Below the pieces are notes generated by a model that saw only the letters and a list, made by a program, of their open reading frames with translations, was not told the origin of the DNA and made no database searches. Shown here in pieces: positions 7,576 to 63,292 of a stretch of DNA of 64,000 bases; position 1 is the first letter of the stretch; each line of letters starts with the position of its first letter. The stretch lies in NCBI RefSeq assembly GCF_020164585.1, contig NZ_JAIQZF010000005.1, forward strand, positions 1-64,000, in the 5' to 3' direction. Made by a program: the position numbers and the translations under genes. This stretch comes from Psychroflexus curvus (lineage in GTDB: Bacteria; Bacteroidota; Bacteroidia; Flavobacteriales; Flavobacteriaceae).

Positions 7576-8050
7576 ATAATAACCAACAAATTTGCGACAA
7601 ATACTAAACATTTTTTTTGCAATGCGGACGCTTACCTTTTAAAAAACAATTGCAACATAAAAAAAGATAAATCAACGGCTTTCTCATTTAGCGTTGTAAA
7701 ATTAGCGACGTATCAAATAGAGGTTTTTCAATTAACGGTTGCTAAACAGGCCAACGGGGTAAAAAAATATATTTATAACGTAACTGTTTCAGATAAACAT
7801 GTATTTTTATCAAGATATAATGATTTGTGCGGCAGCTAAAAAAAGAAAATATTGAACATTGATTGGAACATATCACAAGATGACATTGGTAAAGTAAAGA
7901 AGGTTATATCAGAGAACCAAAACTTATAGAATTGAGAAAATGGTGGAAAACAAAAAAAGAAGAGAATATTAATTAGTAAAGAAAATAAGCTAAATTAATT
8001 ACGCTTGTTTGCCAACAACAAAACATATGCAAGCCCTTTAAATATAAACA
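7576..8050 (+). other. Non-coding stretch with probable gene remnants
   Basis: There is no intact gene here. A frame is open from 7576 to the TAA at 7837-7839 but has no start codon; its last ~25 codons look protein-like (YIYNVTVSDKHVF). A second short frame, 7852-7929, reads like the N-terminus of a protein (TTG start, 25 residues) and stops. A degenerate CAACGG repeat lies at 7671-7757. I read this as a zone of broken genes; the evidence is weak. Confidence 0.3.
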
Positions 8051-8062
8051 TAACCAGATATC

Positions 8063-9433
8063 TTGGATTATTTAAAAGCATATAAAAGGATAGTCAGCAG
8101 TGCAAAAAGAGAAGAGCGGAGTGGTTATTTGGAGCTTCATCACATTATCCCAAAGTGCATTTTTGGAGAAAATCTATTAAATGAAAATGGAATAGATAAT
8201 GTAAATCAAGAGTCAAATCTAGTTTATCTAACAGCACGAGAGCATTTTGTCTGCCATTGGCTATTAAATAGAGCCTTTCCAAAAAACAAGAAGCTTGGAT
8301 TAGCTTTTTGGGCAATGGTGGGAATGATTAGCCCTGATCACAAAAGAGATTACACTCCATCTTCTAGGGCAATATCGGAAGCAAGAACTGCAGCAACCAA
8401 CGCTAGAAAAATACCCATTTTACAATATAACCTTAAGGGCGATTTTATCAGGGAATTTAAGAGTCTGAATGCGGCAAGTAAAGCTGTGGGCATAGTCCCA
8501 AATGCAATCGGTCAAAATTTAAATAGTTTTACGAAATCTGCTGGCAGTTTCCAATGGCGCTTCAGAACCAAGAACTATCAAAATAAAATAGAGTCCTATA
8601 TTATCGAAAATAATGGCTTACCCATAGGCCAATATGATCTACAGGGTAATTTAATTAATTCTTACAAAAGCATGTTAGATGCAGAAAGAAAAACAGGGCA
8701 TTCTGAAGGAAGTATTCGCGCTTCAATGAATAGGGGTGCAAAAATAAAAGACACCTCTTATTTCTTCATACAATTCAACAAACATCAAGAAATTCCCAAG
8801 ACAGTTGAATCATTTGAAATACCAATCCAAAAATTCTCAATCCCTGTTGTTCAAATAAGTTCAGATGGAAAAAATTTCGTAAATGAATTTCCTAGCATCA
8901 CTCATGCCCAAAATTTTTTCAATCGTAAAAAAAGTCACATTTCGGATGTTTGTAATGGAAAAAGAAATACTGCTTTTGGATTTAAATGGTTGTATAAAAA
9001 TGACTATAAAAAGGATTTACCTAAAATCCCTATGGAACTTGCAAGTCGTAAAGTATACTCAAAGAATGTAGCCCAATATTCTTTAGACGGTGAATACATT
9101 AAAACACACAAAAACCCTACTGAGGCTTCTAAAGAGACAAATTGTTCGACAGGTAATATAATATCAGTTATTAATGGAAAAAGAAAATCTTCTGGTGGCT
9201 ACATTTGGGCATACATAAAAAATGGAAAAATACCCAGAATCGAATCTATTCCAAAAGCTAACAATATGCCAAAAGCTATAATTATGTTGGATAAAGAAAA
9301 AAATGAAGTACTCAAAACATATGAAAGTATAGCAGAAGCTGCAGAAGCAGTAAATGGTTCACGTTCTAACATTTCTGCATGCATCAATGGAAGAAAGAAA
9401 ACGGCCTATGGATACAAATGGAAATTTAAATAA
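8063..9433 (+). CDS. HNH-type homing endonuclease with five NUMOD1-like repeats
   Basis: A 456-residue protein. The N-terminal ~90 residues match phage-type HNH homing endonucleases: LELHHIIPKC, then an AREHFVCHWLL helix. Five repeats of ~50 residues follow (beginning near 117, 185, 260, 335 and 400), each of the form QY-G--I--Y-S--EA-----S-I--------GY-W. That is the NUMOD1/IENR1 DNA-binding pattern found downstream of HNH and GIY-YIG domains. The start is TTG at 8063; an in-frame TAA at 8051 leaves no upstream ATG. It would cut a specific site and promote its own spread. The frame stays open directly after the stop codon into what looks like the tail of another gene (9434-9790), as expected if it inserted into a host gene. 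Confidence 0.75.
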   Translation: MDYLKAYKRIVSSAKREERSGYLELHHIIPKCIFGENLLNENGIDNVNQESNLVYLTAREHFVCHWLLNRAFPKNKKLGLAFWAMVGMISPDHKRDYTPSSRAISEARTAATNARKIPILQYNLKGDFIREFKSLNAASKAVGIVPNAIGQNLNSFTKSAGSFQWRFRTKNYQNKIESYIIENNGLPIGQYDLQGNLINSYKSMLDAERKTGHSEGSIRASMNRGAKIKDTSYFFIQFNKHQEIPKTVESFEIPIQKFSIPVVQISSDGKNFVNEFPSITHAQNFFNRKKSHISDVCNGKRNTAFGFKWLYKNDYKKDLPKIPMELASRKVYSKNVAQYSLDGEYIKTHKNPTEASKETNCSTGNIISVINGKRKSSGGYIWAYIKNGKIPRIESIPKANNMPKAIIMLDKEKNEVLKTYESIAEAAEAVNGSRSNISACINGRKKTAYGYKWKFK

Positions 9434-35145: not shown

Positions 35146-35307
35146 GTGAATGATGATGGAAGAACAAGACTTACGGTTGAAACCTACAAGAAAATATCAA
35201 AAGATGAGGTAAGTACCGATGAAGAAGTCAAAGAAATAATTAATAACCTACATAAACTGAGCAATCTGGTTTATGATATAATAAATACAAACAAAAATGA
35301 AGAATAA
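35146..35307 (+). CDS. Small ORF overlapping the large serine recombinase
   Basis: Fifty-three codons from GTG, acidic and helical (DEEVKEIINNLHKLSNLVYD). Its stop codon overlaps the recombinase start by 11 bp, which suggests translational coupling and possibly a recombination accessory factor. The start codon is non-ATG and no homology is recognised. Confidence 0.4.
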   Translation: MNDDGRTRLTVETYKKISKDEVSTDEEVKEIINNLHKLSNLVYDIINTNKNEE

Positions 35308-36952
35308 CCTAAACTACTTTAAAAAATACAGCTCCTATACGGAAGAAGTAAACACGAATAAAAATGTTTGGTTCTATTCACGGGTAAGTAGCAAATCACA
35401 ATTTGATACAAATAGTAGTATAGATAACCAAAGAACAGCTGCTTCCCGTTACGCCTATAAAAATCAGCTATCAATAACTGATAATTTTGGTGGTACATAC
35501 GAATCAGCAAAAGGTGATTTTACTCGTAAAGAATTTAAACGGCTTATATCTGAGGTAAAAAAAGCTAAAAACAAACCTTATGCAATCTTGATATATAAAA
35601 TGAGTCGTTTCTCCAGAACTGGGGCTAATGCCATAGGATTAGTAAGTGAACTAATTAATACACATAAAGTGCATTTAATTGAGGTTTGCAGTGGTAAAGA
35701 CACCACGACACCACGAGGTGAACATGAAATTATAGAATCGTTACAATATGCAAGAAAAGAAAATATTGAACGATTAGAAATCACAATACCAGGTCTAACA
35801 TCTTACGTAAGAAATGGGAACTGGTTAGGAACAGCTCCTAGAGGGTATGACCATTATGGTCCTAGAGTTAAAAATGCTGAATTTATAAGTGGCAAACAGC
35901 GACTTGAAATAAATGAAGAAGGTAAGTTAATTAAAAAAGCTTGGAAATGGAAAGCCCAAGGTGTAGCTGATTATAAAATTAGAGAAAAACTCAGTACTTA
36001 TGGATTAGCGATATCTAAACAATCTTTAAGTGCAATGTGGCGAAATCCATTTTACTGCGGCATACAAGCCAATAAACTGCTTAAAGGCGAAGTGGTTGAA
36101 GGTAGCTGGAAACCTTTGGTGTCAAAGGAACAATTTCAAAAAATAAATGAGATACTAGACAGCAAAACCAGCACTGGATACACTCAGTCAAAAACGAATG
36201 ATGGTAGGCCTCTTCAATCTCACTTGTTTTGTGGTATCTGTGGTACTAAAATGACAGGATATAAAGCCAAAAAGAAATATGATTACTACAAATGCCAAAA
36301 CAAATCCTGTAATTGCAAAGACTTAAATGCTAATAGCTCTACGAAATCAATCAAAAAAGGTATTAATAACTTATTTGAAGACTACCTCAACCAATTTGTA
36401 TTAGATACTAAGTATACTGAAGCATTTAAAGCACAAATGAAGCTTACTATTAACGATAGGAATAATGAATCTATTCAGCTTGAAACTTCTTTAAATAGTC
36501 AGTTAGAGAATCTAAACATACAGCTTGATAGCCTTGAAAGAAAATATGCATTTGAGGAATTGGATGTAAACTTATATAAAAAGTTCAGAGATGAGATTGA
36601 ATATAAAATAGGAGAAAAAAATCGTGAAAAGTCAAATCTGAGTTTAAAGATATCGAACCTTGATAAAAAAATTGAAAAATGTGTAAACGTCACTCAAAAC
36701 ATCAGTAAATACTGGAGGTCAAGCAAAACAGATGACAAGATAAGAATGCAAAAATTGATTTTTCCTCATGGAATAGTCATTGACCCGATAAAACGACAAT
36801 ATCGAACCACAGAAATCAATTCGGTATTTTCTTTAATATCAAGTATATCAAGGGAAAGCGAGGACAAAAAAAAAGACTCATCAACTAATTTAGTTAATGA
36901 GTCTCACTCAGTAGCGGGGACTGGACTCGAACCAGTGACCTTCGGGTTATGA
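35297..36952 (+). CDS. Large serine recombinase overlapping a tRNA attachment site
   Basis: A 551-residue large serine recombinase. The catalytic domain has R29-V-S31 (FYSRVSS), YKMSRFSRTG and the E-helix. A recombinase domain follows (WKAQGVADYKIREKLSTYG), then a zinc ribbon (FCGICGTKM ... CQNKSCNC near 310-345) and a coiled coil (about 370-460). The last ~14 residues (VAGTGLEPVTFGL) are simply the reverse complement of a tRNA-Met 3' half, and the preceding codons contain the tRNA's terminator hairpin. The gene therefore gained its C-terminus from the attachment site. It catalyses integration and excision of the island to its left. Confidence 0.88.
   Translation: MKNNLNYFKKYSSYTEEVNTNKNVWFYSRVSSKSQFDTNSSIDNQRTAASRYAYKNQLSITDNFGGTYESAKGDFTRKEFKRLISEVKKAKNKPYAILIYKMSRFSRTGANAIGLVSELINTHKVHLIEVCSGKDTTTPRGEHEIIESLQYARKENIERLEITIPGLTSYVRNGNWLGTAPRGYDHYGPRVKNAEFISGKQRLEINEEGKLIKKAWKWKAQGVADYKIREKLSTYGLAISKQSLSAMWRNPFYCGIQANKLLKGEVVEGSWKPLVSKEQFQKINEILDSKTSTGYTQSKTNDGRPLQSHLFCGICGTKMTGYKAKKKYDYYKCQNKSCNCKDLNANSSTKSIKKGINNLFEDYLNQFVLDTKYTEAFKAQMKLTINDRNNESIQLETSLNSQLENLNIQLDSLERKYAFEELDVNLYKKFRDEIEYKIGEKNREKSNLSLKISNLDKKIEKCVNVTQNISKYWRSSKTDDKIRMQKLIFPHGIVIDPIKRQYRTTEINSVFSLISSISRESEDKKKDSSTNLVNESHSVAGTGLEPVTFGL
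36866..36903 (-). terminator. Terminator of the tRNA-Met site, inside the recombinase gene
   Basis: GACTCATCAACTAA/TTAGTTAATGAGTC, a 14-bp stem with one mismatch at 36875-36903. On the minus strand it is followed by a run of nine T. It sits 7 bp beyond the tRNA 3' end. Confidence 0.7.
36911..36952 (-). other. tRNA-Met 3' half (attachment site, att)
   Basis: Read on the minus strand: CTCATAACCCGAAGG, the anticodon loop with CAT, then the T-arm GGTTCGAGTCC and acceptor strand CCCGCTAC. The 5' half is absent; the sequence to the right does not pair. This is the displaced or duplicated 3' end left by site-specific integration, not a working tRNA. Confidence 0.8.
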
Positions 36953-43402: not shown

Positions 43403-45952
43403 TTAAATCAAACTGAACTTAAATTCCCAGCCCACCGGAAATTCACTACTTGGTTCATCAATAATTATATAATCGTATTTATAATGTTTAGCTATTTCTA
43501 TTATTTTCCAGACCCCGATTCCTGTCTTACCTGTTTCACCTGCCTTGGTTCCTTTTACTCCCAAATCTTTTCGTAATCCTTTGGCGAAAGGTAGACCATT
43601 GTTTAGAATTCGTAAAACTATTTTACCATTTTCCGGAAATAATCTTATCGAAAGAGTATACTTAAAATCTGGATCTCTATCTGGATCCCTGAAGCCATGA
43701 AGTTCTGCATTTTCAAATATATTATTCAGTAGTTCACTAATAGACTTTTCTGAGCCCATCACAAAAACATCATTAATATTCTCAGATTGAAATTGAAGAG
43801 AATCAGACTTAAAATCAATGCGGTAATTAGAAGATTTAATATCGAAATTATGCACTCCTTCTTCCACCAATTTTTTCAAATCTACAGAAGTCGAAGCTCC
43901 AAAATCAAATGTTTTGAGGTATTTTACTTCTACTTTTAATGACTCTAAACTTGAATTTAGACTTGAAAAAGTATGAGATACTAAAGTGTTTTCTGATGTA
44001 ACATCATCAGCCCTTAAAAGGCCACCATTTCTGTCCATGATCTTTGTTAATATATACATAGCATTAGTGACATTTGCTAAATATTGCCTCATTGAGTGCT
44101 GCTTAACTCCTAATTCAGACTTAAATAACTTCTTAATGTCTGCCAACTGCTTTTCAAGGTTTGATTCTTTTTCTTTTTGCTGCAATATATAATGGCCAAG
44201 TTTATCAACAACTAGTTCCTGTTGCTCTAGAGCAGCGATTTTTATTTCAATTTTCAAAAAATCCTCCTTCCTCAAAATGGGCATGGTCATACCTACACTA
44301 AAGACTTCTACTTGAGATTTTACATAATTAGTTAATAATTCATTAATTAAATAATCAATATTAATCGTCTTCTTGTCAACTTTAAATGGAGTTATACCGG
44401 CACCCAAAAAGACAGGTGAACCTTCATATTCAAAATAGGTGGGTTTTAAATTCTTGTTTTCCAAAGAAACTAATAATGCAGACTCTTCTAATCGTTGTAC
44501 AGATGTATCTACAGAATCAGTTTCCAAAGAATTATAATCTATATAAAAGTTTAAATTGTCCTCCTTCAGATCTTTTCTTTTTACCAGTTTTCCAAAAGTC
44601 TCACTTTGATCTTCTGGACGATTTTTTGAAGTAATTAGAGATAGAAACCTATTTACGGAAGTACCATAATATGACTTTGAAAAGTATCTCTTATAATCTA
44701 ATATATAAGTAAACTCTTTAATCACATCGTTAGTAACTTTTCTTAAAAAAGAACTTTCCTGATTTAGCTTTATAATGTTTAGCAGATCATGATCATTTAA
44801 CCGCTTGTCCAGACTCCCGCCACCTGATGCAAAATTAGATCCATCAATAAAATTTACAATTCCTGGGTTATCTTTATTCTTATTAATAACCAGGAGAGAC
44901 GTCTTAATCCCTGTATGCTTTAAGATCCCAGGTGGCAATGAAATTATAGATTCTACTAAATCTTTATCAACCAGCAATTTTCGATTATCAAAATTGCTGC
45001 TATCGTAGAAAAAGGTATCTGGTACATTTAAGATCATTTTACCAGAACTTTTCAATTCATTTAAACCTTTTTTTAGGAGTTTGTCTAAATTATAATTAAT
45101 TTCATTGGATGATGCACTAGCTGCATTTATTTTAGAGCCTGCGATACCTGCAGCTAAAGCACTTAAAGCACCTAGGCCTGGAATAAACTGCAAAGCCACT
45201 CCTGCACCTGCATATTTAAGTAGAGTTTTTTTTCTTTGCTCCTGCGTGGCTTTGGTAGGTACAGAAAATGGGTCTGTGATAATTACATCATAAGGCGTCC
45301 ATTCTTTCTCCTTAACCCCATACTCCAACTTTTTGTTTTTAGAATAACCACTGGCCAATAACCGTAACTTACCAATAATATATCTGAATGGGTCAGATTC
45401 CTGCCCATGGTAAATTTTGTCATTGTCCGTAAAACGCCCAATATTGGCTTCGCCGGCATGAGGATTGAATATCTTAACGCCATGTTTTAGAGGAACGATG
45501 TTAATCATCAATCGGCTCAATTCGACAGGAATTAATGATCCTTCATCGAAAACAGAATAGTATGAAGATAATGTGTCAAAGATTTCTAAAAAATATTTTT
45601 CAATAAAATCTGGCCCAATTGAATTGATCAGAGAGTCCCATCTTTTAAATAGATATAACAGATCACGTTTAGGAATCTTTTTGATGATTGGAGCATAAAA
45701 CTTTAATATTTCTGAATAAGATTTTCTGTAACGGGGATGTACAGTATAAAGGAAATTTTGGATTTGATATTCTGTACTACTGGAATCACTCAGAAAATCG
45801 GAGCTGAACCCTTCTTTTTTAAGAGTCAAGAAATATAAAACAATATTGTTTTCGTTTACATCTAAACCTCCGACATCACGAAAACTTCTGTACAAAGATT
45901 GTGATACATCATTAATTACTTTAATTTCATTTTCGGATAATCTTATTGACAT
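43403..45952 (-). CDS. Degenerate type I methylase (M + half S) fused to a histidine kinase
   Basis: An 849-residue fusion. Residues ~85-420 follow the HsdM N6-methylase layout, but motif I is NPHAGEA (163-169) and motif IV is TDPFS (226-230) instead of NPPF/Y, so methyl transfer is unlikely. Residues ~450-600 resemble half an HsdS subunit: a target-recognition domain, then IAALEQQELVVDKLGHYILQ. A DHp-like helix with H619 (GVKQHSMRQYL) follows, then a HATPase: N-box NNIFEN (743-748), NNGLP (784-788), and TGKTGIG (807-813). A hydrophobic Gly/Ala-rich insert at 248-275 is unusual. I infer a DNA-sensing kinase that signals to the receiver protein next to it. Confidence 0.75.
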   Translation of the reverse strand: MSIRLSENEIKVINDVSQSLYRSFRDVGGLDVNENNIVLYFLTLKKEGFSSDFLSDSSSTEYQIQNFLYTVHPRYRKSYSEILKFYAPIIKKIPKRDLLYLFKRWDSLINSIGPDFIEKYFLEIFDTLSSYYSVFDEGSLIPVELSRLMINIVPLKHGVKIFNPHAGEANIGRFTDNDKIYHGQESDPFRYIIGKLRLLASGYSKNKKLEYGVKEKEWTPYDVIITDPFSVPTKATQEQRKKTLLKYAGAGVALQFIPGLGALSALAAGIAGSKINAASASSNEINYNLDKLLKKGLNELKSSGKMILNVPDTFFYDSSNFDNRKLLVDKDLVESIISLPPGILKHTGIKTSLLVINKNKDNPGIVNFIDGSNFASGGGSLDKRLNDHDLLNIIKLNQESSFLRKVTNDVIKEFTYILDYKRYFSKSYYGTSVNRFLSLITSKNRPEDQSETFGKLVKRKDLKEDNLNFYIDYNSLETDSVDTSVQRLEESALLVSLENKNLKPTYFEYEGSPVFLGAGITPFKVDKKTINIDYLINELLTNYVKSQVEVFSVGMTMPILRKEDFLKIEIKIAALEQQELVVDKLGHYILQQKEKESNLEKQLADIKKLFKSELGVKQHSMRQYLANVTNAMYILTKIMDRNGGLLRADDVTSENTLVSHTFSSLNSSLESLKVEVKYLKTFDFGASTSVDLKKLVEEGVHNFDIKSSNYRIDFKSDSLQFQSENINDVFVMGSEKSISELLNNIFENAELHGFRDPDRDPDFKYTLSIRLFPENGKIVLRILNNGLPFAKGLRKDLGVKGTKAGETGKTGIGVWKIIEIAKHYKYDYIIIDEPSSEFPVGWEFKFSLI

Positions 45953-47017: not shown

Positions 47018-47118
47018 CTTTATTGAATAATCAAATTAAAATTATTAAAGGGTAAGATAATCGAGCTAATATAGTAAAATCTTAATGACAAAATTTGCCT
47101 CAGTAGTATAGACAAAAC

Positions 47119-47151
47119 TTAATTCACTTGGGCTAGCCCCAAGTGAATTAA
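47119..47151. terminator. Long perfect inverted repeat between hsdR and WYL module 2
   Basis: TTAATTCACTTGGG/CCCAAGTGAATTAA, a 14-bp perfect stem with a 5-nt loop. It may terminate the type I operon on the minus strand. The absence of a strong T run leaves an operator role open. Confidence 0.6.
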
Positions 47152-47221
47152 AACAATAAATTTGTGAATAGATTGTAAAAATAAACAGTTCTAATTAAGG
47201 GAAGCCTACAATTAGTTTTAA

Positions 47222-50510: not shown

Positions 50511-53500
50511 TTATCTTAAGTAAAAATGATGTTTAGAATATTGGTCATACTTATCTTCCGTATCAACCCTATTTTTGATAATTAATTCAACAATTGTTTC
50601 AATCTTGGAAGGACTGATCCCATTTCTTTCATCAGTTGTAATTACTTGGTCCCAAATACCTGCTTCTTGGTATCTTTTTGTTTTTAATTCTTTCCATGTC
50701 CAAACATATTTTCTTTGACTTAATAAACCAAGATGCTCCCAGTACCAAGTTTCATTTTTAGTATAGATTGTAAAATCAACTTTAATGTTAACCTCTTTTC
50801 CCTCTACAATGGGTTTTACTTCATAATCAAAATTAAATTTTTCTTCTCCTAGTTCATCTCTCTTGTTCATTAAGATATGATAAATCAATAGTTCGACTCG
50901 AGATTCTACATATATTCCTGACTCTGGTTCCAAATCATAAAATCTATACGGTTTATCTAATAACAAACTGGTTTTACGAGAGGCTGAAAAAGATCTTTCC
51001 GATGCTCTCTCTAAAACACTTTTCTTTTCATCCGAACTTGATTGAATAAAAAGCGTAATAGATTTTTTAGTTCTTGTCAAAGCCGTATAAATTAATTCTT
51101 TTGAAAGAAGACCAAAACGTGAAGGAATAACTAAAAACAAATGATTAAAACCACTACCCTGAGATTTGTGTATAGTTATGGCATAGGCTAATTCAAAAAA
51201 TTCAATTTCTGATGATCTAATATCATTAAAAGACATGCTATCTAAACTTTGTCCTGTTTTATAATAAAATTTTTCACCTTTATCAGCTTTAATTAAACCA
51301 AGTGTCCCATTAGACAATTCTAGCTTCTTTTTATTATAATAATTTTTTGTTCGTAATAGTTTATCTGATTCTTTAAAAAGATTCTTTCTCAAATCATATT
51401 TTAAATCGTTTTTAAACCTGGATTGAATAAAGTCATTAATCTTACTAGCTCCAGAATATTCTGAATGATAAGGCGATAAAATCTGAAAATTTTCAATATC
51501 AATATCATTATTCTTTATACTTCCATTCTTATTTAATCCTAATATCTGGTTTAGTCTCTCATTTAAATCTCCTTCATAGTCTTGAGTTAACCTATCAAAC
51601 TCTTCCGTTAAAGATTTAAATAATTCGTCTTTATTAGACCAATAACGTGCTCTAAAACCTTCCGATATTTCAGTATTCTTATTATCGAACTTAGTCTTTA
51701 AATCAAAGTGTATATCGTCTTTAACATTAACTTTAAAAGCTTCAGCTAACCTTAAAACTTCATTCTTTTTAAGTTCAGATCTGCAATTACTTTCTAATTG
51801 AATAAAGTTATTTTGGTAGTCTTTATTAGTACTTAGATAATTTAATAAGTCAGCTAAAACACGCCCGTAACCTATAGCTGGCAGTTGATTTGGATCGCCA
51901 ACTAGGATCAAACGTTTAAATGATGGATCATCAAAATTAAAAATCTCTAAAAGTCGTTTAAATTTTAATAAATCTACCATTGAGGTTTCGTCAACAATTA
52001 CATTTTTAAATGCTTTGATATCTTGTTGCTTTATTTTGCGATTCTTTACATCATTGATAAACTTATCAATTGTAAATGCTTGTATATTTTCAAAATCTTT
52101 ATCTGAGCTAAGTCTCAATGCTGCTTTTCCAGTAGGAGCTAATAGCAAATATTTTTGATTTTCTTGCTCATTGAGGTGCTGAATAATTTTTAATACTTCG
52201 AATGATTTACCGCTTCCAGCACTTCCAGCTACAATAAAGAGTCGTTCTTTGAAAATATTGGTATATAGCTGCTGGCGCTCTTTTTTAAATAGATCTTCGT
52301 CAAATTTTTCACCAATTACATTTTTAAGTGTTATAAATGATTTATGGATATAATTAGATAGATTTAAATACTTTTCATTATTCTTAGATCCACGAAGTAA
52401 TTCAGACACACTTTTTTCTACATACTTTTCTGCGTCGTAAACTTCAGATAAATAATAGTACATGGTATCATTTTCTTCTAATAGTACTATCTTTTTTGGC
52501 TCTTCTTGGAAATGATTAGCATAGTCTGCTTCTAACGGGTAAAAGAAATTTTCTGGCAGCATGTAGTCTTCACCAATTTCATAATATAAGGGGTAATTAG
52601 TAATAGCTTTTTGTAACAGTTCTGCCGTGGTAAAACAATCACCTGTGTTTTCTAATGTTTTAAGATGCCTTAGTATAAGTGCTCGAATTCTTCTCTTATC
52701 TACAAAATTTATACTTCTCTGCAAGTCAGTTCTTGGCACAAAACGAGTATCAGGGAAATAAGCGATATCGATTTTGAATAAATCAATTGGTGCATCTAAC
52801 TCTTCACCATAAACATCATCATGTGAGTCAGGATAATAATCATAATCTTCATAGAGTTCATATGGGTTTTCAATAATATCCAAGACACTGTGCGAGCGTT
52901 TAACTTCATCAAAATCTCTATACCAATCCTTAGTTAATTTTAATTTCCCTTGCAAAACACGTTCAAATTGAAACGGTTTTAAATTTAGCATACATAGGCT
53001 TAAAAATTGTTCAAAAGAATAATCACGTTGTTCTAATCTATCTTTAAGTTCATTAATGCCATTTTTATATTTAATGGCCCAGGATTTAGAGCTTGGTTTT
53101 TTAAGTATTGCTATTAATGCTTCTTCATCCTTATTCTCTTCTAATTTAAAGTCTTCATAGAATTGTTCAAGTGGGAATTTAGGTTCGTTAGTTTTATTCA
53201 ATAAAACACGTGATATAGATGTAAATCCTGGAAAATAAGATCTAGTTTCCCATGCATGATGCAATAATTGTTCAACTTTATCTACGCGTTCCTGCATATC
53301 CTTTCTAGGTAACACACCATCATCTTTGCAGCTTATTAAAGCCTTACGCATTTTGGTTAGCACGTAAATTGTTTCATCATCTCCAATATCCATTGCTACA
53401 TACTTAAAGCACCACTCAAGCTCTGGCTCAGATATAGCAACTTTGATTTTATCCATAAAACCATCTCTATCTTCAGTGTTTAACTTATCTGCCTCTTCCA

Positions 53501-54497
53501 GATACTCATGATATGGCATTCGTATAGTAGAATATTCCTCAAAACTAAATTGCATCGCCCAATTAATGCTTGGAAAGTTTCTGTATTTAAAATTTTTCTG
53601 TGGTCTTGATTTTATTTTTTCAATTTCCTTCTCTGGTCCAAAATGAGGTATTTCAGATGATTTTTGTTTTCTATTTACTAGCCCGGCACCTACCACTAGA
53701 TATTGTTGTTCCTCTTCTGTAATAGGATTTGAAAATTTAGCATACATAAAGGCAATACTTTTGCCTTCATCTATTTTAGCATTGAACCTGGGTATACGTG
53801 TCTCTTCTAGGTTTTTAGGGTAGGCACCGCTTTCTTTTTGTTCTTTTTTTGATCGTGTAAATGATACCGAGAAAGGCCAGCTATACATTGACCTAGCTGG
53901 AAGTTCTTCTTCAATATTTTTTAATCCTGGTGCTGCTGGATTGTCGTGTTTTGCTTTAATAGGGTCTTTACCAAAAAGGTTTGCAGACCAAAAACAAGGT
54001 GGTAAATAATCAATATTCTTTAATAATTTTCCCCTATTGACTATTTCATCATCTATATTTTCATCCTTGCGTTTTCTAATACGTTCTGATAGTAAGGAAT
54101 GAAATCCGTTGCAGTAGGTGTTATTCTCCGGATCTTTACAAATGGTACCATTCCATTTGTTATCATGCCAAGCTACACGAAGAGTTAGATGTTTTAAAGG
54201 TATTTTATAGCTATTATCTTGTAATAGTTCTGATGTCTTTTCATCTTTTTCATCATCTTCTGCAGATTGATCTAATTGTTCAACCAAATTTAACACCCAC
54301 CTTATCATGCGGTCACCAAAGTACTTAGAAATGCCTGCTTTTTTTTTGGCATCCATTAAAGCCCCTATATTCTTAAATCCTAACTTTTTTTCTTTTGCAA
54401 GTTCTATGTATTCATCCCACTCTTCGACAGAATATGCATCAAAATCTGCACGCATAATGTCCAGGTCATAAGGATCGTTTATATCGTAATTAGCCAT
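50511..54497 (-). CDS. RecD-like SF1 helicase with C-terminal nuclease-like domain
   Basis: A 1328-residue protein. The first ~740 residues have no motif I recognise. The SF1B (RecD/Pif1-like) helicase follows: Walker A GSAGSGKSFEVL near 760, VIVDETSMVDLL near 840, VGDPNQLPAIG near 860, and AITIHKSQGSGF near 1110 with LIYTALTRTKKS. The last ~100 residues contain VDFTIYTKNETWYWEH and a later KTKRYQ, the D..EH..K pattern of nuclease domains attached to helicases. It lies inside the type I operon between GmrSD-like and hsdR genes (gaps of 1-3 bp). A role in processing cut or replicating phage DNA is inference. Confidence 0.75.
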   Translation of the reverse strand: MANYDINDPYDLDIMRADFDAYSVEEWDEYIELAKEKKLGFKNIGALMDAKKKAGISKYFGDRMIRWVLNLVEQLDQSAEDDEKDEKTSELLQDNSYKIPLKHLTLRVAWHDNKWNGTICKDPENNTYCNGFHSLLSERIRKRKDENIDDEIVNRGKLLKNIDYLPPCFWSANLFGKDPIKAKHDNPAAPGLKNIEEELPARSMYSWPFSVSFTRSKKEQKESGAYPKNLEETRIPRFNAKIDEGKSIAFMYAKFSNPITEEEQQYLVVGAGLVNRKQKSSEIPHFGPEKEIEKIKSRPQKNFKYRNFPSINWAMQFSFEEYSTIRMPYHEYLEEADKLNTEDRDGFMDKIKVAISEPELEWCFKYVAMDIGDDETIYVLTKMRKALISCKDDGVLPRKDMQERVDKVEQLLHHAWETRSYFPGFTSISRVLLNKTNEPKFPLEQFYEDFKLEENKDEEALIAILKKPSSKSWAIKYKNGINELKDRLEQRDYSFEQFLSLCMLNLKPFQFERVLQGKLKLTKDWYRDFDEVKRSHSVLDIIENPYELYEDYDYYPDSHDDVYGEELDAPIDLFKIDIAYFPDTRFVPRTDLQRSINFVDKRRIRALILRHLKTLENTGDCFTTAELLQKAITNYPLYYEIGEDYMLPENFFYPLEADYANHFQEEPKKIVLLEENDTMYYYLSEVYDAEKYVEKSVSELLRGSKNNEKYLNLSNYIHKSFITLKNVIGEKFDEDLFKKERQQLYTNIFKERLFIVAGSAGSGKSFEVLKIIQHLNEQENQKYLLLAPTGKAALRLSSDKDFENIQAFTIDKFINDVKNRKIKQQDIKAFKNVIVDETSMVDLLKFKRLLEIFNFDDPSFKRLILVGDPNQLPAIGYGRVLADLLNYLSTNKDYQNNFIQLESNCRSELKKNEVLRLAEAFKVNVKDDIHFDLKTKFDNKNTEISEGFRARYWSNKDELFKSLTEEFDRLTQDYEGDLNERLNQILGLNKNGSIKNNDIDIENFQILSPYHSEYSGASKINDFIQSRFKNDLKYDLRKNLFKESDKLLRTKNYYNKKKLELSNGTLGLIKADKGEKFYYKTGQSLDSMSFNDIRSSEIEFFELAYAITIHKSQGSGFNHLFLVIPSRFGLLSKELIYTALTRTKKSITLFIQSSSDEKKSVLERASERSFSASRKTSLLLDKPYRFYDLEPESGIYVESRVELLIYHILMNKRDELGEEKFNFDYEVKPIVEGKEVNIKVDFTIYTKNETWYWEHLGLLSQRKYVWTWKELKTKRYQEAGIWDQVITTDERNGISPSKIETIVELIIKNRVDTEDKYDQYSKHHFYLR

Positions 54498-54500
54498 ACT

Positions 54501-56165
54501 TTAACTTATTAGGTTTGGGTTCCAGTATCTCTTTGCAAAAGCAACAATATTATTTTGGCGATTTTTTATTTCTGTATCTGACCAATTATTTTTATAAGGT
54601 TCTAATTCCTGTCTTTGAATTAAAACAGAATTTGTCGGTCTATTGCTAGGTAAATTATTACTATCACTAGAGTTTCTTCCTCTAGTAGCCAAAACTAGAT
54701 TGCCGACATTATTTAGAAACTTTTCTTTAAATTCTTCTGAGTAATCAATACCTTCAGGATTTTGAGGAGTCCAATGATCTAAGGTGTTCTGTAAATTGAA
54801 TTTCCCATAAGCATTCACAAAATCATTATAACTCATCCCTGGTTCAGGTATCCTACTTCTTAGGTCGTTTTCATATTTCCACAATAAATAACGTGTCGAC
54901 TTAAAATAATGATAATTCCCTTTTAGACGACTTTCAAAATCTCCTGTGAAATTCCAATAATCCTTGAACCCATGATTAGCATGATATAATAATTTACCTT
55001 CTAATTTTAGTATGTCATTATTATAAACTAGAGCGATTTTATGCAACAAATTAGTTCTATAATTACCTACTGTATATTCCATTTTAAACAGAATAATTTC
55101 TGTTAAACGTAATACTCTCTTAATCTGTATTAGGTCATGATAATGAAACAGTTTTAAAACTAGTGGAAAAGCATTGTATTGATCTAAATATAATATATCT
55201 CCTAAAAGGCCTTCCTTATTTTTAAATCTTTGAATTGTTATAACATTTGAAAAGCTCTTTTTTAAACCTACCGTAAAATCTTTTATCCAATTGCTTTTAT
55301 CATCTTGTTTTTTTAATGCTTTTTTGACCCGTTCTAGGGATGTATCGTTATTTGAAATGAATGCAATTGTGTGATAATTTAAAACTTGATCTTCATCAGC
55401 TATTTTTATTAATTCTAAAGATTGATAAATAGATTCAAACTCTTTTTCTATATAAGAGATATCACCATTAGGATTCTTACCAGAGATGGCACAATCTAAA
55501 TAAATATTGAACATCAAAAACGACTTTAGCTTCTCTAACTCAGTAAGGTCTTTCCCTCTGTCATTTTGAAAAGTAAATAGTTGCGTTGCTTCTGCTTTAT
55601 CTGATACAGAATCTGTAGTTATTTTAGCATTTTCAATTAAATCTTTCCATCCTATGATATCGAGAATTGAAACATCATTTTTATCAAACTCAGTAGTAAA
55701 ATAGTCAAAAGCTTCTAATATTCTTTTTCTAGATCTTGTATCTGCTTTATCTTCAATTTGTCTAATAATTATGTTTTCAAAAAAATTATTATCATAAGTA
55801 ACCGTTGCATATTTTTGGTCGCCATCTGTATTTATTAAATACTCATTGTAAATGTTAGTAGCTACAGTTTCATAATCTTTAAGGTCTTTAATTTTATTAT
55901 AAACACAACTTAAAAATATAACTATAGTTGTAAGTCTTTGTTGACCATCTATGATCCAAAACTTGTTTTTAATATACTCATCTTCTTCAAATAAAAAATG
56001 GCCAAAATGGTATTGATCTACCGATTTAGGATGCTCTTTTATATCTTTAAAAAACTGCTTGATTTGTTTATCTCTTTCCCAAGAATAAGCTCTTTGGTAA
56101 TTGGGAACCGCAAATAAATTTTTTCTAGGACTAAATATGTCGCTAATGGTAGATCTATAATCCAT
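54501..56165 (-). CDS. GmrSD-like protein (DUF262 + DUF1524)
   Basis: A 554-residue single-chain GmrSD/SspE-type protein. The DUF262 part has V20-P-N-Y-Q-R25, AYSWERDKQ and FWIIDGQQRLTTIV (nucleotide-binding, ParB-like). The C-terminal DUF1524 HNH-like part has LDHWTPQNPEG with later N and H/N residues (NNVGNLVLATRGRNSSDSN). Relatives cut modified DNA using an NTP, or nick phage DNA in phosphorothioate systems. Its place between hsdS and the helicase (gaps of 1-3 bp) means it is made with the type I enzyme and could attack phages that escape by base modification. Confidence 0.8.
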   Translation of the reverse strand: MDYRSTISDIFSPRKNLFAVPNYQRAYSWERDKQIKQFFKDIKEHPKSVDQYHFGHFLFEEDEYIKNKFWIIDGQQRLTTIVIFLSCVYNKIKDLKDYETVATNIYNEYLINTDGDQKYATVTYDNNFFENIIIRQIEDKADTRSRKRILEAFDYFTTEFDKNDVSILDIIGWKDLIENAKITTDSVSDKAEATQLFTFQNDRGKDLTELEKLKSFLMFNIYLDCAISGKNPNGDISYIEKEFESIYQSLELIKIADEDQVLNYHTIAFISNNDTSLERVKKALKKQDDKSNWIKDFTVGLKKSFSNVITIQRFKNKEGLLGDILYLDQYNAFPLVLKLFHYHDLIQIKRVLRLTEIILFKMEYTVGNYRTNLLHKIALVYNNDILKLEGKLLYHANHGFKDYWNFTGDFESRLKGNYHYFKSTRYLLWKYENDLRSRIPEPGMSYNDFVNAYGKFNLQNTLDHWTPQNPEGIDYSEEFKEKFLNNVGNLVLATRGRNSSDSNNLPSNRPTNSVLIQRQELEPYKNNWSDTEIKNRQNNIVAFAKRYWNPNLIS

Positions 56166-56166: not shown

Positions 56167-57390
56167 TTAATTATTATAATTTTCTCTTGGCTCTGCAGCC
56201 ATATTTAATTGGTTTTCTTCTAACTGTAAATCTTCCACAGATAACTTACCGCTTATTAAACGTGGTAATAATAAATCTCTGGTATCTTGAAGGATTTGGT
56301 TTTTATCTTTTAAGATTAATGTCTCATCTAACATTGAATCTGTAATACTTTCAAATTTTTTAAGTAAGCTCTCTATTGGAAGAGCAATCTTCATAAACTT
56401 AGTAGAACCACTTGCGTGAAGTATGGTTGTTCCAGCAGCATGTGCTTGAATTGTTCCTTGAATATTAGCAGACAGCAACGTGAAATATGCAAAGCTTCTT
56501 TTTATTAAATCTGTTTTATAAACTATTTTACGTAATCCTGAGGAATAACAACCTTCTAAACCCATAGCAACTTTTCCAACAGTACCATCAAGAGTTATTA
56601 AAATGTCATCTTTCCTTACATACTTATCTTTAGAAAGTCCTTTTTTTATGAAAATATTACTATCTCTACTTCCTAAATCTCCAACTCGTAAAAACGGCAC
56701 ATAATTGTCATCCAAAGGTTCAGATTCATAATTTTTACTACCAGGTTCTACTCCTTTTTCAAAATCAATAAACTTATCTAATCTAACTTTCTCCCACCCC
56801 TCAGGAATAGCACCTTTTGTTCCATGAGGCACTTCCTTACCATCTTTATCAAAGAATTTGGTGTCTTCATAACCAGGAAAACGAAAGCGTACAAACCACT
56901 CTTTGTAGATTTCCTCTGCCATGTCTTCTAATAGCTTAATGCGTTGGTTGTTGTTTTCTATTAAATCATCATAAGCTGAAAGGATTGAGGCTATTTTATC
57001 TTGAATATATCTGATAGGAATTTTAACCTTAACTCCATATAAAATATTCCTATTCAAAGATGGTTGTGCGCTACCCGAATTTAGATTTGAAAAATCATTT
57101 GCTTTTAAAAAATAGTAAACAAATTTTTCATTATTCCCTTTAAAGTCTTTTACATATAAACAGGCATTGTGCGGCCAAAAGGGCTTATCTATAAAAAAAG
57201 CTTTAGCTATTGAAGCACCACTTCTACCAATTGTTACACCTGGTGAATTGGCCTTATAAATATGATGATAACCATTTATACCTGCTGAACCAACAACTGG
57301 ATAAATCCCAAAAGTCCTTTCTGACTCAGGTAGGTCATGACCTCTTTGAATTGCTATAAAATCCCGAAATTTCATTTCTCTAAAACTCAT
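56167..57390 (-). CDS. hsdS: Type I specificity subunit (second system)
   Basis: A 407-residue HsdS with two target-recognition domains. The first is followed by the conserved helix IPIRYIQDKIASILSAYDDLIENNNQRIKLLEDMAEEIY near 130-165 (the NNQRI.LLE...EEIY block is a family hallmark). The second domain has GDLGSRDSN and VGKVAMGLEG, followed by a matching C-terminal helix with LILKDKNQILQDTRDLLLPRLISG. Its start shares one base with the hsdM stop. The frame is intact. Confidence 0.92.
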   Translation of the reverse strand: MSFREMKFRDFIAIQRGHDLPESERTFGIYPVVGSAGINGYHHIYKANSPGVTIGRSGASIAKAFFIDKPFWPHNACLYVKDFKGNNEKFVYYFLKANDFSNLNSGSAQPSLNRNILYGVKVKIPIRYIQDKIASILSAYDDLIENNNQRIKLLEDMAEEIYKEWFVRFRFPGYEDTKFFDKDGKEVPHGTKGAIPEGWEKVRLDKFIDFEKGVEPGSKNYESEPLDDNYVPFLRVGDLGSRDSNIFIKKGLSKDKYVRKDDILITLDGTVGKVAMGLEGCYSSGLRKIVYKTDLIKRSFAYFTLLSANIQGTIQAHAAGTTILHASGSTKFMKIALPIESLLKKFESITDSMLDETLILKDKNQILQDTRDLLLPRLISGKLSVEDLQLEENQLNMAAEPRENYNN

Positions 57391-59495
57391 TAAACTAAAT
57401 CTTTGAGATTACTAGAAATAAGATTTTCTTTATCAATTGAAATCAAATTCAATTCTTCAAGTAATACTCTTCTTTCATTTATTATTTTTTTAAATTCTGA
57501 TTCCGATAAATTATCTTCTTCAACCTCAATACCAACATATCGTCCCGCATTTAACGAATAATCTTGTTCTTCTGCGTATTCCGTTTCATCAGCCATTTTA
57601 CACAAGCCAGTCACATCTTCATATTTTGCTTCTGGAAAACGGCTTTGAAGCCACTTAATGTTAGTAAGCCAATACGTAGCTTGATCAGTAGCTTCCAGAT
57701 ATAACCTAAAGGAGTCTTCTAGATGTTTATCTGCTTTAGATAAGTTATTAGTTACCCAAATCTTATCGCTTTTAAGTTTTAAGTTTTTGTCTGCGAGTTT
57801 ATAGAGTTCTAAAACTTTATTAATGTCTTTTTTGAAAGACTCAGCGATATTTTTGGTTTGGTTTACTTGCTGCTCTATACGTTTAGCTGTTTCTAATTGG
57901 CTGTCGTTATCTAAAGACACATCTTCAACAATTATCGCTCCTGAAACTACTCTTTCAATTTGGGTGTGATTAAAATCTTCTAAAACATTAAAGAAATCGG
58001 CTTCAGCTAAAGCTTTCTTTTTGGCAGGTGTACGCTTTTCGCCTTTGGTTTCCTTAAAGTAGGCTTTTAAGTTTTTTACTAAACCATCTAACTGCTGTAC
58101 AAGCGCTTCTTGGTAAGGTGTAATTTTTGCAAAAGCACTTAGCGCTTCTTTTATATAAGATCCTATTAATTCTAAATAACGTTCAGTTTCACCGCGATAT
58201 AAGCGTACAATAGCAGCTAAATTTTGTTGATGCTCTGTAGTCCACTCTCTATGTGCACGGTCTATTTGATTATAGACATTACGCGCATCTAAAAACAAGA
58301 TTTTGTCTTTGCGGTCTGTATGTACTTTTTGCTTATCAAAAAACCATAAAGTAGCCGGTAAGGTTACGGTTAGAAACATATTGGTTGGCATACTTACCAT
58401 ACAATCTACAATGCCAGAATCTACAATCTTTTTTCGGATGTCGTATTCAGAGTGGCTTGCATCACTAGCAGAATTTGGCATCAAGAAACCTGCGCGACCT
58501 TTTTCATTTAATGAGGTTGCAAACAATGAAATCCACAAATAATTAGCATCTGAGATGTTATCGCTTTTGCCTTTACTTTTTGGTAGTCCAAAATTATAAA
58601 AACGCTTGTCATTTTTAACTGTAGCTTCTTTTACAGATTTCACGTTAAACGGTGGATTAGCCATAACGAAATCAAACTTTCCAAAACCATCGTAAGGATC
58701 ATTATCGTAAGAGTTGGTTTCAGTAATTTCACCACGTAAATTATGAACGAGTAAGTTCATTTTTGCTAAACGAACGGTTTCGCCCATATATTCTTGACCG
58801 TAAACATAAATATCATTCAGGTCATGGCCTTCATGAGCTATAAAATCGGCCGATTGTACGAACATCCCACCAGAACCACAGGCAGGATCATAGATTTTGC
58901 CTTTGTAAGGCTCTATAACTTCAACTATAAAACGTACAACGGAAGTCGGTGTAAAGAACTCTCCTCCTTTTTGGCCTTCACTCATAGCAAATTTGCCCAA
59001 GAAGTACTCATAGATTTTACCAAAAATATCTCCAGATGCATCCTTAGGTATATCTGAAAAGGTTTTTAATAATTCTGGTAAAATATCATCTTTCTTTTTC
59101 TCAATATCAAAATAAGAATCAGTTGGTAATACATCTTGAAATTTGGCATCCTGAAACTTCTCAATGCCTTTCATTGCGTCACGTAATGCTTCTGCTCTTT
59201 TATTACCAGATAGCTTTAATAAGTAATCATATCGTGCATTGTCTGGCAAATAAAAACCACATTTCGCCAAGGCGATCTGTTGTATGGTCCGTTCCATCCT
59301 AGTCCCTTTTTCTTTCTTGTATGTTTCTAGAATCTCAGGTTCATGCTGGCTATATTTATTTTCAGCAAATTTCAAAAAAATCAAACCTAATACTGGAACT
59401 GCATAATCTGATGCTTTTAGACCGCCATGAGCCCTTAAAGCATTAGCAGAATCCCAGAGCTTGCTTTCCAGTTCTTTTAATTGGTCGTTTGTCAT
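57390..59495 (-). CDS. hsdM: Type I methyltransferase subunit (second system)
   Basis: A 701-residue HsdM. An N-terminal helical domain is followed by FFTPTSVVRFIVEV, motif I DPACGSGGMFVQS and motif IV NPPFNV, all intact, so N6-adenine methylation is expected. The C-terminal ~250 residues are helical and longer than in short HsdM proteins. It heads the five-gene operon. The ~250 bp before it, up to 59745, should hold the promoter. Unlike the first system's hsdM, nothing is broken. Confidence 0.94.
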   Translation of the reverse strand: MTNDQLKELESKLWDSANALRAHGGLKASDYAVPVLGLIFLKFAENKYSQHEPEILETYKKEKGTRMERTIQQIALAKCGFYLPDNARYDYLLKLSGNKRAEALRDAMKGIEKFQDAKFQDVLPTDSYFDIEKKKDDILPELLKTFSDIPKDASGDIFGKIYEYFLGKFAMSEGQKGGEFFTPTSVVRFIVEVIEPYKGKIYDPACGSGGMFVQSADFIAHEGHDLNDIYVYGQEYMGETVRLAKMNLLVHNLRGEITETNSYDNDPYDGFGKFDFVMANPPFNVKSVKEATVKNDKRFYNFGLPKSKGKSDNISDANYLWISLFATSLNEKGRAGFLMPNSASDASHSEYDIRKKIVDSGIVDCMVSMPTNMFLTVTLPATLWFFDKQKVHTDRKDKILFLDARNVYNQIDRAHREWTTEHQQNLAAIVRLYRGETERYLELIGSYIKEALSAFAKITPYQEALVQQLDGLVKNLKAYFKETKGEKRTPAKKKALAEADFFNVLEDFNHTQIERVVSGAIIVEDVSLDNDSQLETAKRIEQQVNQTKNIAESFKKDINKVLELYKLADKNLKLKSDKIWVTNNLSKADKHLEDSFRLYLEATDQATYWLTNIKWLQSRFPEAKYEDVTGLCKMADETEYAEEQDYSLNAGRYVGIEVEEDNLSESEFKKIINERRVLLEELNLISIDKENLISSNLKDLV

Positions 59496-59745: not shown

Positions 59746-60636
59746 TCACTCCATTTCATTTTCAACCTCAGTATACCTCTCCATTATACGTTCAGATTTA
59801 GATAGCAGGGGCATCAGTCCTTTTTCCAGCTCAATCACCTCCCCCAATTTTTCGTACTGCTTATCGGTCATAAGACGAGTTTTGATAGAATCGATATCAG
59901 ACTGTACAGCTTCAAACCTGGACCTCAGCAGATGAATATCTTCCAGAAAAAAGGAATTAGAATACCGGACCGAGGATTGTACCAACACCTGTCGCTTAAA
60001 GGCATGGTAGGCCTTAAGGATCTGGTTGATGCCTGCTGGCTCAATGCGTTTTAGCCGGTATTTAGGGATCTTGATATAGATTTTTCGGGCTCTGGCTGTG
60101 GCGGCGAACGGCCCAAAAGCATTAAGCTGATTTAAGTGTAAATCATCTTCAAAGTACTTAAACGTATCGTTGAAAATAATCACGTCCGGATTTAATTCAT
60201 GTATCTGTTTTTGAATAAGTCCCTTGTATTCTTTATAGTATTTATAATAGTCAGGATCTTCGGTCCTGTGACCATCGGAGACTTTTTTGATGCAGATACA
60301 GGCCATGTGTCTTAATGCATTGGCATAGTCGCTCGCCGGGTTTGGGATGTGCTTATCCAGGGTGTATAAGTCATTTAAAACTGGGTAGGACACTCTGTTG
60401 ATGTCAGAAAAAAAATCCTTAAAGCCTTGTCTAATCAAGAAGGACGTATGAATTTTCCTTAGGTGTTCACGGAGATCAAAAGCCTCCCATTTCTCTAAAT
60501 GGGAGACATCTTTCAATATCCATAAAATTTTTACAGGAGCCTGTACATAGGACGTCAGATGTACCACCCCATCGTATATGGGTTCTCCCCGTAGTTGTTT
60601 AGCTATTGCTTTTATGTCGTCTTCAAAGGTTTTCAT
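59746..60636 (-). CDS. Protein of unknown function, uracil-DNA-glycosylase-like pattern
   Basis: A 296-residue protein. Strands APVKILWILKDVS (about 32-44) and NPDVIIFNDTFKYF (about 148-161) recall the beta-alpha-beta core of uracil-DNA-glycosylase-like proteins, with a possible catalytic loop just after the first strand. The C-terminal ~90 residues are a long coiled coil (SRFEAVQSDIDSIKTRLM). The fold call is tentative. It is 65 bp downstream of the WYL gene and on the same strand, so it is likely the third gene of the AAA/WYL module. A role in recognising altered bases would fit but is inference. Confidence 0.4.
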   Translation of the reverse strand: MKTFEDDIKAIAKQLRGEPIYDGVVHLTSYVQAPVKILWILKDVSHLEKWEAFDLREHLRKIHTSFLIRQGFKDFFSDINRVSYPVLNDLYTLDKHIPNPASDYANALRHMACICIKKVSDGHRTEDPDYYKYYKEYKGLIQKQIHELNPDVIIFNDTFKYFEDDLHLNQLNAFGPFAATARARKIYIKIPKYRLKRIEPAGINQILKAYHAFKRQVLVQSSVRYSNSFFLEDIHLLRSRFEAVQSDIDSIKTRLMTDKQYEKLGEVIELEKGLMPLLSKSERIMERYTEVENEME

Positions 60637-61606: not shown

Positions 61607-63292
61607 TTATAGTTTACTGAAACCAATTTCAATGCGTTTATTAGTAAGTGTTTCTTCGGAACAAAACACCAATAGATTTTCAAGTGAAACTTCCTCACCG
61701 TGAATGATTTCGTTGATTTCACTTTTGCGGATGATGTTATCGATTTGTCCCCCTGAAAAGTTAAAATTTTCGGCCAGGAAGTTACAATCTTCCACAGAAA
61801 GTGATGGCAGTTTGATCTTCCAAATCTCAGCTCGAATAGAACTGGAGGGTTGATTGAACAGAATTTTAAACAGAAATCGCCTTTCAAAAGCAGAATCTAA
61901 ATTGTGAGCCAGGTTGGTGGTAGCAATCAAAATACCTTCAAAGTTTTCTAATTCCTCCAAAAGAATATTTTGGATGGCATTTTCAGTTTGTCGCGTATTA
62001 GAACTGCCGATATCTCCACGTTTGGAAATGAGTGCATCAGCTTCATTCAGAAATAAAATAGGAGTGATGTCACAGTCTTGCCTAAAGCTTTTGTAATTGG
62101 TGAATATCTTTTTCACCACCTTTTCGCTCTCCCCAAACCACATGGATTTGGACTGGCTGATATCTACCTTCATGATGTCCCGATTGGTGTCTTTAGCAAT
62201 CTGCTTGACGACTTCTGTCTTACCAGTACCTGGTACGCCGTGAAGCAAAGCGGCAATACCTTTGGGCAGGTTTTTTTCTTCCAGCCGCTTTTGTATTTGC
62301 TGAAACTCAAGAGGCTGCAGCACATCCTTTAATACATAGAGCTGCTTCATCTCCGAAGGACTGAAGATTAATTTGCGTTTTAGTATATCTGCTGGTGACA
62401 GAATGTTGTCTTTATTTTTCTTTTTCTTAAACACTGTAATTCCACAATCCTTAAGTAAATTATTGGAAATATTGGTCAATTTCATCTCCGTATCATTTAG
62501 AAAATTAGAAGGGATGATTTCTATCAATTTATATTCTAAAAGCTGATTATTCCCGTCAACCAAGTCCTGCATATAATGTACTCGCTTGGTTGCTCTGTCA
62601 AAAAAAGCCTCGAGAGCTCGTTCTATATCACAGGATTCTCGGCCTGTGATCGTTTTCCATATCAAATATAAATACATCAACTTATCATCCAAAGAAAGTT
62701 CAAAGTGCTGTATCTTTTGAATCAGCGCAAATTCTTTGTATTCTTCTAACAGGTTTAATGTCAAATTATAGAGTAAAGAGGTGTTAATTTCTCTATTATT
62801 CCTCTGTTTTCCTAACTCATAAATTTCTTCCAATAACTCAAAAATATCGGAGATATCTCTTTTAAGCTCAGGAACAGTTTCATTATTTAAAATGGCTTCA
62901 CAGAGTTTTTCATTTACTGTAAATTGATTATTAGCTCCTGCCACTTCCACGCGATGTTTAGATAGCTTCTTTTTAAAATAAGCTTTGGAATGTAGATAGG
63001 TGAAATCTTTATTATATTCCAGTAATTTCATTGGATTACAATCAAAGTATTCAATCATATCATTTAAATCGACTGTATCCCCCTTGTAGTTTAAGGTAAA
63101 CACTATGGCGATTAAAAAAGACTGACTTTTAGATGTTCCAAAGTAATCGGAAAGCATTCTTAATTCAGTATCATTTTCTATAAAAAAGCACTCTTCAAGT
63201 TTGCACTTTTCAGAGTTCTCGTACAGCTTACCGATGCAGTCGAGTAGCTTAAATTTTTCAGTAGTTTCCATATCTTCTTGATTATACGACAA
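61607..63292 (-). CDS. AAA+ ATPase with N-terminal sensor-like region
   Basis: A 561-residue protein. The first ~300 residues are helical and unknown. The AAA module has Walker A GVPGTGKTEVVK near 352, the Walker B-like LFLNEADALI near 417 (Asn where the first Asp is usual), sensor-1 region IATTNLAHNLD and arginine fingers in SAFERRFLFK. It would form a ring and remodel proteins. The Asn in Walker B is shared by a known group of AAA proteins, so it is not necessarily inactivating. It heads a module with WYL and the unknown 296-residue protein. Confidence 0.75.
   Translation of the reverse strand: MSYNQEDMETTEKFKLLDCIGKLYENSEKCKLEECFFIENDTELRMLSDYFGTSKSQSFLIAIVFTLNYKGDTVDLNDMIEYFDCNPMKLLEYNKDFTYLHSKAYFKKKLSKHRVEVAGANNQFTVNEKLCEAILNNETVPELKRDISDIFELLEEIYELGKQRNNREINTSLLYNLTLNLLEEYKEFALIQKIQHFELSLDDKLMYLYLIWKTITGRESCDIERALEAFFDRATKRVHYMQDLVDGNNQLLEYKLIEIIPSNFLNDTEMKLTNISNNLLKDCGITVFKKKKNKDNILSPADILKRKLIFSPSEMKQLYVLKDVLQPLEFQQIQKRLEEKNLPKGIAALLHGVPGTGKTEVVKQIAKDTNRDIMKVDISQSKSMWFGESEKVVKKIFTNYKSFRQDCDITPILFLNEADALISKRGDIGSSNTRQTENAIQNILLEELENFEGILIATTNLAHNLDSAFERRFLFKILFNQPSSSIRAEIWKIKLPSLSVEDCNFLAENFNFSGGQIDNIIRKSEINEIIHGEEVSLENLLVFCSEETLTNKRIEIGFSKL

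Follow-up and report, generated by a model that had tools for sequence, protein, structure and literature searches.

A decayed type I methylase fused to a histidine kinase and paired with a receiver protein, found mostly at type I RM loci

Known inputs of histidine kinases include chemicals, light, ions and stress. In phage defence, MADS (methylation-associated defence) combines a methylase with a separate Ser/Thr kinase, and Detocs is, to our knowledge, a two-component system that works without a methylase sensor. Soluble kinase-receiver pairs linked to RM genes have been described as Response_reg_2/HEF_HK; in the passages dealing with them their main association is with type II RM systems that have C5-cytosine methylases, and they are the closest published pair to the one reported here (PMC8011034, Bellieny-Rabelo 2021). 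Nowhere in the text of that paper do the words fused and fusion, or the names HsdM and N6_Mtase, appear. BREX, a methylation-based defence, offers a further likeness in a histidine-kinase-like domain, carried by the Schlafen RNase-minimal histidine kinase-wHTH proteins of BREX loci; the passages on these proteins mention no HsdM/HsdS sensor, and the effector is a different one (PMC12839542). HATPase and REC also stand among the predicted, unvalidated domains named in a figure legend of the DefensePredictor study, which could include something similar (PMC13092281).

Here we describe a sensor kinase of 849 aa, given the working name MSK, encoded in a 64,000-nt stretch of Psychroflexus curvus DNA (hereafter the window). 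Its first 600 residues tie MSK to type I RM (HsdM/HsdS/HsdR), combining an HsdM fold with a single HsdS half, and 13 of 19 loci have canonical HsdM-HsdS next to it; MSK differs from type I RM in lacking the methylase motif pair, in its single TRD, and in its C-terminal histidine kinase with a receiver partner. MADS is similar in bringing a methylase and a kinase together, and Detocs in its two-component logic. Among the matches listed, the PADLOC models mad2 and mad5 recognised the methylase or specificity part only, in two relatives. Set against MSK and its receiver, the models PF19192 and PF19191 had no match at the loci of six genomes and one weak match each elsewhere, in a comparison without a positive control (14 control genomes hold neither). 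No methylase-HsdS-kinase fusion was found among the matches listed from full texts, a collection that excludes bioRxiv and most subscription papers.

The architecture suggests that a DNA site may be read by the cell and the outcome passed on as a phosphate signal. If MSK does read DNA, it would represent a new class of histidine-kinase input, obtained through a recycled methylase, and would provide a handle on how type I systems refrain from cutting an unmodified host that they have just entered, and how they keep self sites apart from foreign ones as time passes.

Architecture of MSK, its receiver and the surrounding island

The initial annotation, made from the window alone, placed at 43403-45952 a single polypeptide composed of a degenerate HsdM fold, a half-HsdS recognition domain and a DHp/HATPase kinase with H619, and both the coordinates and the three assignments proved correct (Table 1). 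The frame lies on the minus strand, and the plus-strand reading of the same interval is riddled with stops. Pfam recognises N6_Mtase at residues 296-426 of the window protein (3e-16) and Methylase_S at 506-594 (2.6e-5); the altered methylase motifs NPHAGEA and TDPFS start at residues 163 and 226, and H619 sits within KQHSMRQ. No HATPase match was obtained by Pfam from the window copy alone, even at E 10; HATPase_c was matched by 10 of 11 aligned MSK proteins at a lenient E ≤ 10, the best at 7.5e-8. The profile built from these 11 members, window included, matched EcoR124I HsdM (7bst) at 1.4e-49 over columns 4-417, a resemblance judged from sequence, HsdS chains inside columns 401-589, where 488-582 gave the best value (about 6e-12), and sensor kinases at up to 5e-12, a VicK-like one at 4e-9 for 584-820. 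The three solved kinds of protein thus follow one another along the profile in the order HsdM, HsdS, sensor kinase. Searched separately, the three parts of the window copy were each recognised by profiles of the other 12 members, with 171 bits for the methylase part, 127.5 for the half-HsdS and 139 for the kinase (602-847). Against the two TRDs of an HsdS, MSK has one specificity stretch, at about 431-600.

Table 1. Features of the MSK locus; nucleotide positions refer to the window and residue numbers to the protein named
Feature	Position	Strand	Basis or remark
MSK	43403..45952	minus	open reading frame, Pfam, alignment, profiles, residue conservation
MSK, HsdM-like N-terminus and decayed N6-methylase domain	about residues 1-430
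MSK, single HsdS half with one TRD	about residues 431-600
MSK, DHp	about residues 601-690		includes H619
MSK, HATPase	about residues 691-849
Response regulator, 388 aa	42232..43398	minus	profile, alignment, residue conservation
Response regulator, receiver domain	residues 1-130		D11, D56, K118
Response regulator, conserved helical domain	about residues 131-310		R187 and H260 invariant, E191 nearly
Response regulator, C-terminal tail	about residues 325-388		may be OB/cold-shock-like
WYL-domain regulator, 337 aa	46004..47017	minus	ends 51 nt upstream of MSK
15-pair hairpin, then T-rich stretch	47118..47152	minus	between hsdR and WYL gene; pattern match only
HsdR, 1095 aa	47222..50509	minus
RecD-like helicase protein	50511..54497	minus	PADLOC candidate PDC-S68
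GmrSD-like protein	54501..56165	minus
HsdS	56167..57390	minus	two specificity stretches
HsdM	57390..59495	minus	canonical DPACGSGG and ANPPF

The receiver gene follows MSK after a gap of 4 nt, and the initial annotation was right about both this spacing and the phospho-acceptor D56. Taken alone, the window receiver matches no Pfam family, and PADLOC models recognised no family in it or in four relatives; an 11-member receiver profile matches known receivers at 2e-4. The helical domain keeps R187 and H260 in 21 of 21 receivers; Pfam and PDB gave no credible match for it, and none of the known output domains was found. Comparison with DUF4145/HEPN by hhalign gave a score of 22.3 at one column setting (prob 6%, E 0.006; seven control profiles 7.4-14.6, 40 shuffles ≤13.5) and 15.0 at the other (E 0.11; controls 7.1-15.6, shuffles ≤12.9). 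The alignment has a sensible register, but the catalytic Arg of the Arg-His motif is missing, and a HEPN identity is suggestive at most, the controls not being beaten at one of the two settings; the output is perhaps a novel, HEPN-like helical domain. The C-terminal tail, present in 12 receivers, is weakly OB-like (best match Rho at 0.007, several cold-shock proteins from 0.05), its profile also matches sliding clamps at 0.11, and the window tail scores just 19 bits against it. A structure model of the receiver from the single sequence had a mean pLDDT of 35 and was discarded. No HTH was found in the receiver, which makes classical transcription control seem a less likely mode of action than contact or nucleic-acid binding.

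A full type I RM set, absent from the initial annotation, is encoded upstream of MSK on the same strand. The WYL regulator that had been noticed upstream is indeed present, and from what is known of its family it is likely to be the transcription regulator. Given the terminator-like hairpin between hsdR and the WYL gene, the WYL, MSK and receiver genes may form a transcription unit of their own; the hairpin-plus-T scan returned three sites in 6 kb against 2.3 expected, i.e. near chance. Elsewhere in the window, an IetA-like AAA ATPase (61607-63292; PADLOC 1.7e-26), a 296-aa protein without credible family (59746-60636) and an adjoining second WYL regulator possibly constitute another defence unit. 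A recombinase-like ORF, so named from its sequence, lies near the island at 35297-36952 and ends in VAGTGLEPVTFGL. No tRNA genes were found in the window.

Residue conservation and covariation across intact loci

Conservation was assessed in 19 intact loci (the window, L013-L022, L037, L038, L087-L089 and L091-L093), which include related genomes, L088 and L089 being near copies, so that the counts below are not numbers of independent events. Ordinary HsdM proteins served as controls (n = 12: ten from MSK loci, plus L012 and L023), and all 12 carry both motif I, DPxxG[ST][AG], and motif IV, NPP[FY]. None of the 19 MSK proteins matches both patterns, and the window copy (NPHAGEANIG, TDPFS) matches neither, despite the canonical HsdM of its own island, which acts as a control for it. 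Motif I is found in place, as DPVxG[ST]GG, in L020, L038 and L091 only, each of them with DLPxx replacing motif IV; in L092 a DPxxG[ST][AG] string is present but outside the aligned position; NPP[FW] is confined to L017, L088 and L089; and L087 (NPFTGIGS, SSPPF) comes nearest to having both. The methylase profile has no match in L093 at E 1e-3, and the methylase fold is therefore barely recognisable there. The best tree of the methylase parts groups 13 MSK proteins on one side, but with support of just 65/78 and very long branches, and so does not establish that they arose once.

The signalling residues behave differently from the methylase motifs. H619 of MSK is kept in 19 of 19 copies, as are six residues of the HATPase, namely H752 and, from the N, G1 and G2 boxes, N748, N784, G786, G811 and G813; the G1 box has Asn (the invariant N784) where the classical box carries Asp. 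Receiver residues D11, D56 and K118 are kept in 21 of 21 receivers, a count from which L038, whose residues look intact, was excluded for its differing output domain. In the specificity half, Lys503 is invariant (19/19), and so is Gln578 after the TRD, at 35-45 residues from H619 in every copy. Across 12 loci, L038 again left out, distances between kinases correlate with those between receivers (r = 0.84, p = 0.0002); those between methylase parts do so less closely, though also above chance (r = 0.42, p = 0.0026), and with the other variable fixed the two values become 0.81 and 0.26. Conserved kinase and receiver residues, lost methylase motifs and kinase-receiver covariation are together what one expects if signalling, and not methylation, is the selected function of MSK. 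The proposal of the initial annotation that the protein signals rather than methylates fits these patterns, the anatomy of the protein and the recurrence of the fusion.

Proposed role of the module and its alternatives

Type I RM genes are present in the same stretch in 16 of the 19 loci. An ordinary HsdM gene directly follows the receiver gene in 13, with the HsdS gene next or next but one; in the window, L020 and L091 the type I genes stand elsewhere in the locus; and no HsdM or type I genes were seen in the stretches fetched for L018, L037 and L038. The initial annotation had entertained a separate phage-defence system, and these counts point instead to a module mostly added to RM loci, not a free-standing one. 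Our preferred reading, which we hold to be probable if well short of certain, is that the pair forms a two-component sensor module, consisting of a pseudo-methylase kinase that would read DNA or the RM complex and of a receiver, added to type I RM loci.

DNA reading, phosphotransfer and output action are the steps that we infer for such a module. Each HsdS half finishes with a helix, and it is this helix that spaces two TRDs apart; the 35-45 residues between Gln578 and H619 suggest that in MSK it may continue as the DHp helix. Two MSK chains would then pair through a DHp bundle continuing from the coil after the TRD, giving a dimer whose paired methylase folds and TRDs mimic the clamp of a type I methylase on a DNA site. 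The coil would change when this clamp binds, or fails to bind, a site that is unmodified (or modified), leading to phosphorylation of H619 and passage of the phosphate to D56 of the receiver. The receiver's output might in turn act as an on-off switch for restriction, or for a defence step linked to it; contact with HsdR or with nucleic acid is one possible route. The stimulus may be sequence, methylation or the RM complex. A more specific form of this reading, which we offer tentatively as a serious possibility, holds that the stimulus is DNA sequence together with methylation state, that the dimeric pseudo-methylase proofreads self marks and signals by phosphate to arm, delay or escalate type I restriction, and that the receiver family, also seen in type III CRISPR and McrBC loci, is a general DNA-defence signalling adaptor.

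MSK might instead sense the RM enzyme and not DNA, its HsdM/HsdS-like half docking with the resident HsdM, HsdS and HsdR and reporting their state of assembly or translocation. The ordinary HsdM so often placed directly after the receiver speaks for this, and half-HsdS coils are natural docking surfaces; three loci, however, show no HsdM in the stretch fetched (L038 among them, with McrB/McrC-like genes), and Lys503 of the TRD part is invariant. Furthermore, the HsdM cores of the window (57390-59495) and L013 (11857-13965) are 87% identical, whereas their MSK proteins are 30% identical and the gene order differs; in this comparison the methylase changes far more slowly than the sensor pair, hardly a sign of close co-fitting, and we regard sensing of the enzyme alone as unlikely. 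Nor is there a sign that MSK and the local enzyme read the same site: the hypothesis of a shared site is not supported, since the HsdS that the MSK TRD most resembles is generally not the local one, the exception being L013, where the local HsdS is the closest by BLAST (E 0.025).

Other alternatives concern the two enzymatic parts. The kinase part could be a GHKL ATPase switch without phosphotransfer, the receiver working by ligand binding, as might be read from the Asn in the G1 box, from the missing HATPase match in the window copy alone and from the receiver relative without a kinase seen on a 5.4-kb contig (L094); a kinase-less REC protein of type III CRISPR loci has likewise been proposed, in the passage describing it, to bind nucleotides (PMC11229360). 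Against such a switch stand the complete retention of H619, D56 and K118 and the covariation of kinase and receiver, and we give it little credence. We think it less probable still that MSK is a working methylase tuned by its own kinase domain: single motifs survive in some copies, L087 approaches both, and SAM binding may persist in some, but the two patterns never occur together, and the window copy has neither although its island retains a canonical HsdM. An assembly or ORF-calling artefact, in which case homologues would lack the fusion, can be dismissed as practically impossible, nothing having been found in its favour and the fusion recurring in all 19 intact loci, in genomes of several families, on a Myroides plasmid and on a gut contig filed as phage.

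Distribution and related receivers

In the samples used, the module appears rare and patchy, over several families of one phylum. A single-protein search found it in 9 of 296 phylum genomes, its own genome counted. The receiver profile and the TRD+kinase profile were run on phylum samples of 395 genomes each, apparently the same draw: the former found 12 genomes, the latter 11 full-length MSK proteins, all in genomes that also hold the receiver. Nine of these 11 had supplied the profiles, which leaves G174 and G285 as the independent ones. At E ≤ 1e-12 the TRD+kinase search reached 73 of the 395 genomes, of which 62 gave partial best matches to other kinases (from 2.8e-17) and were not counted. 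In a class sample, the receiver profile matched 17 of 395 genomes, namely five known ones, six with new intact MSK loci, L075 (cut by the contig end), L090, L094, and three weak receiver-only matches (L095-L097) that were dropped. Within the genus, the receiver protein was present in its own genome only, of 27; a second match, G761, is limited to the receiver part of an 866-aa frame.

Outside the phylum, relatives were looked for in collections of plasmids, phages and viruses and, narrowly, in one scan of genome contigs. Four plasmid records were matched, three of Myroides (one examined) and one holding an ordinary HsdM, and the module is also on one gut contig that is catalogued as phage with an unverified flag; scans of viral contigs found no relative. 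L012, the sole locus from the narrow scan, and L023, from Paenibacillus, proved to be ordinary HsdM and were used as controls only. On the Myroides plasmid, the one annotated relative seen, MSK is named 'N-6 DNA methylase' and the receiver 'hypothetical protein', names under which the signalling role is hidden.

The receiver gene adjoins MSK in 19 of 19 loci, with a gap of -35 to +7 nt. This adjacency does not arise only by construction, since the receiver is present at each of the 11 loci, the window among them, to which MSK itself had led; three further receivers from the phylum search stand two with MSK and one with another kinase. An orthologue of the WYL gene is found in 13 of the 19 loci (several genes off in L014, divergent in L016, L018 and L019). 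Of the trio noted by the initial annotation, kinase and receiver thus keep company throughout and the WYL regulator only in part.

Several loci depart from this arrangement. In L038 (G285, 1-9080) the receiver output is a Schlafen AlbA_2 domain (SLFN_AlbA_2), and the genes that come next encode an AAA_5 (McrB-like) protein, a McrC-family protein and a reverse transcriptase. In L090 (G660, 843-3997) MSK is apparently in several pieces and the receiver gene is open. L036 (605-12188), from G066, the twelfth phylum genome matched by the receiver profile, encodes a 307-aa receiver relative and a kinase of 763 aa, whose sensor part was not recognised as a methylase or as anything else, inside a type III-A CRISPR operon with Cas10/Csm1 (7e-137), a weak Csx1-CARF and Cas6. 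In L094 (G515, 421-4543), where no kinase was seen on the contig, a receiver relative with a weakly matching helical part (3e-4) lies beside Cas6 and an RT-Cas1 fusion.
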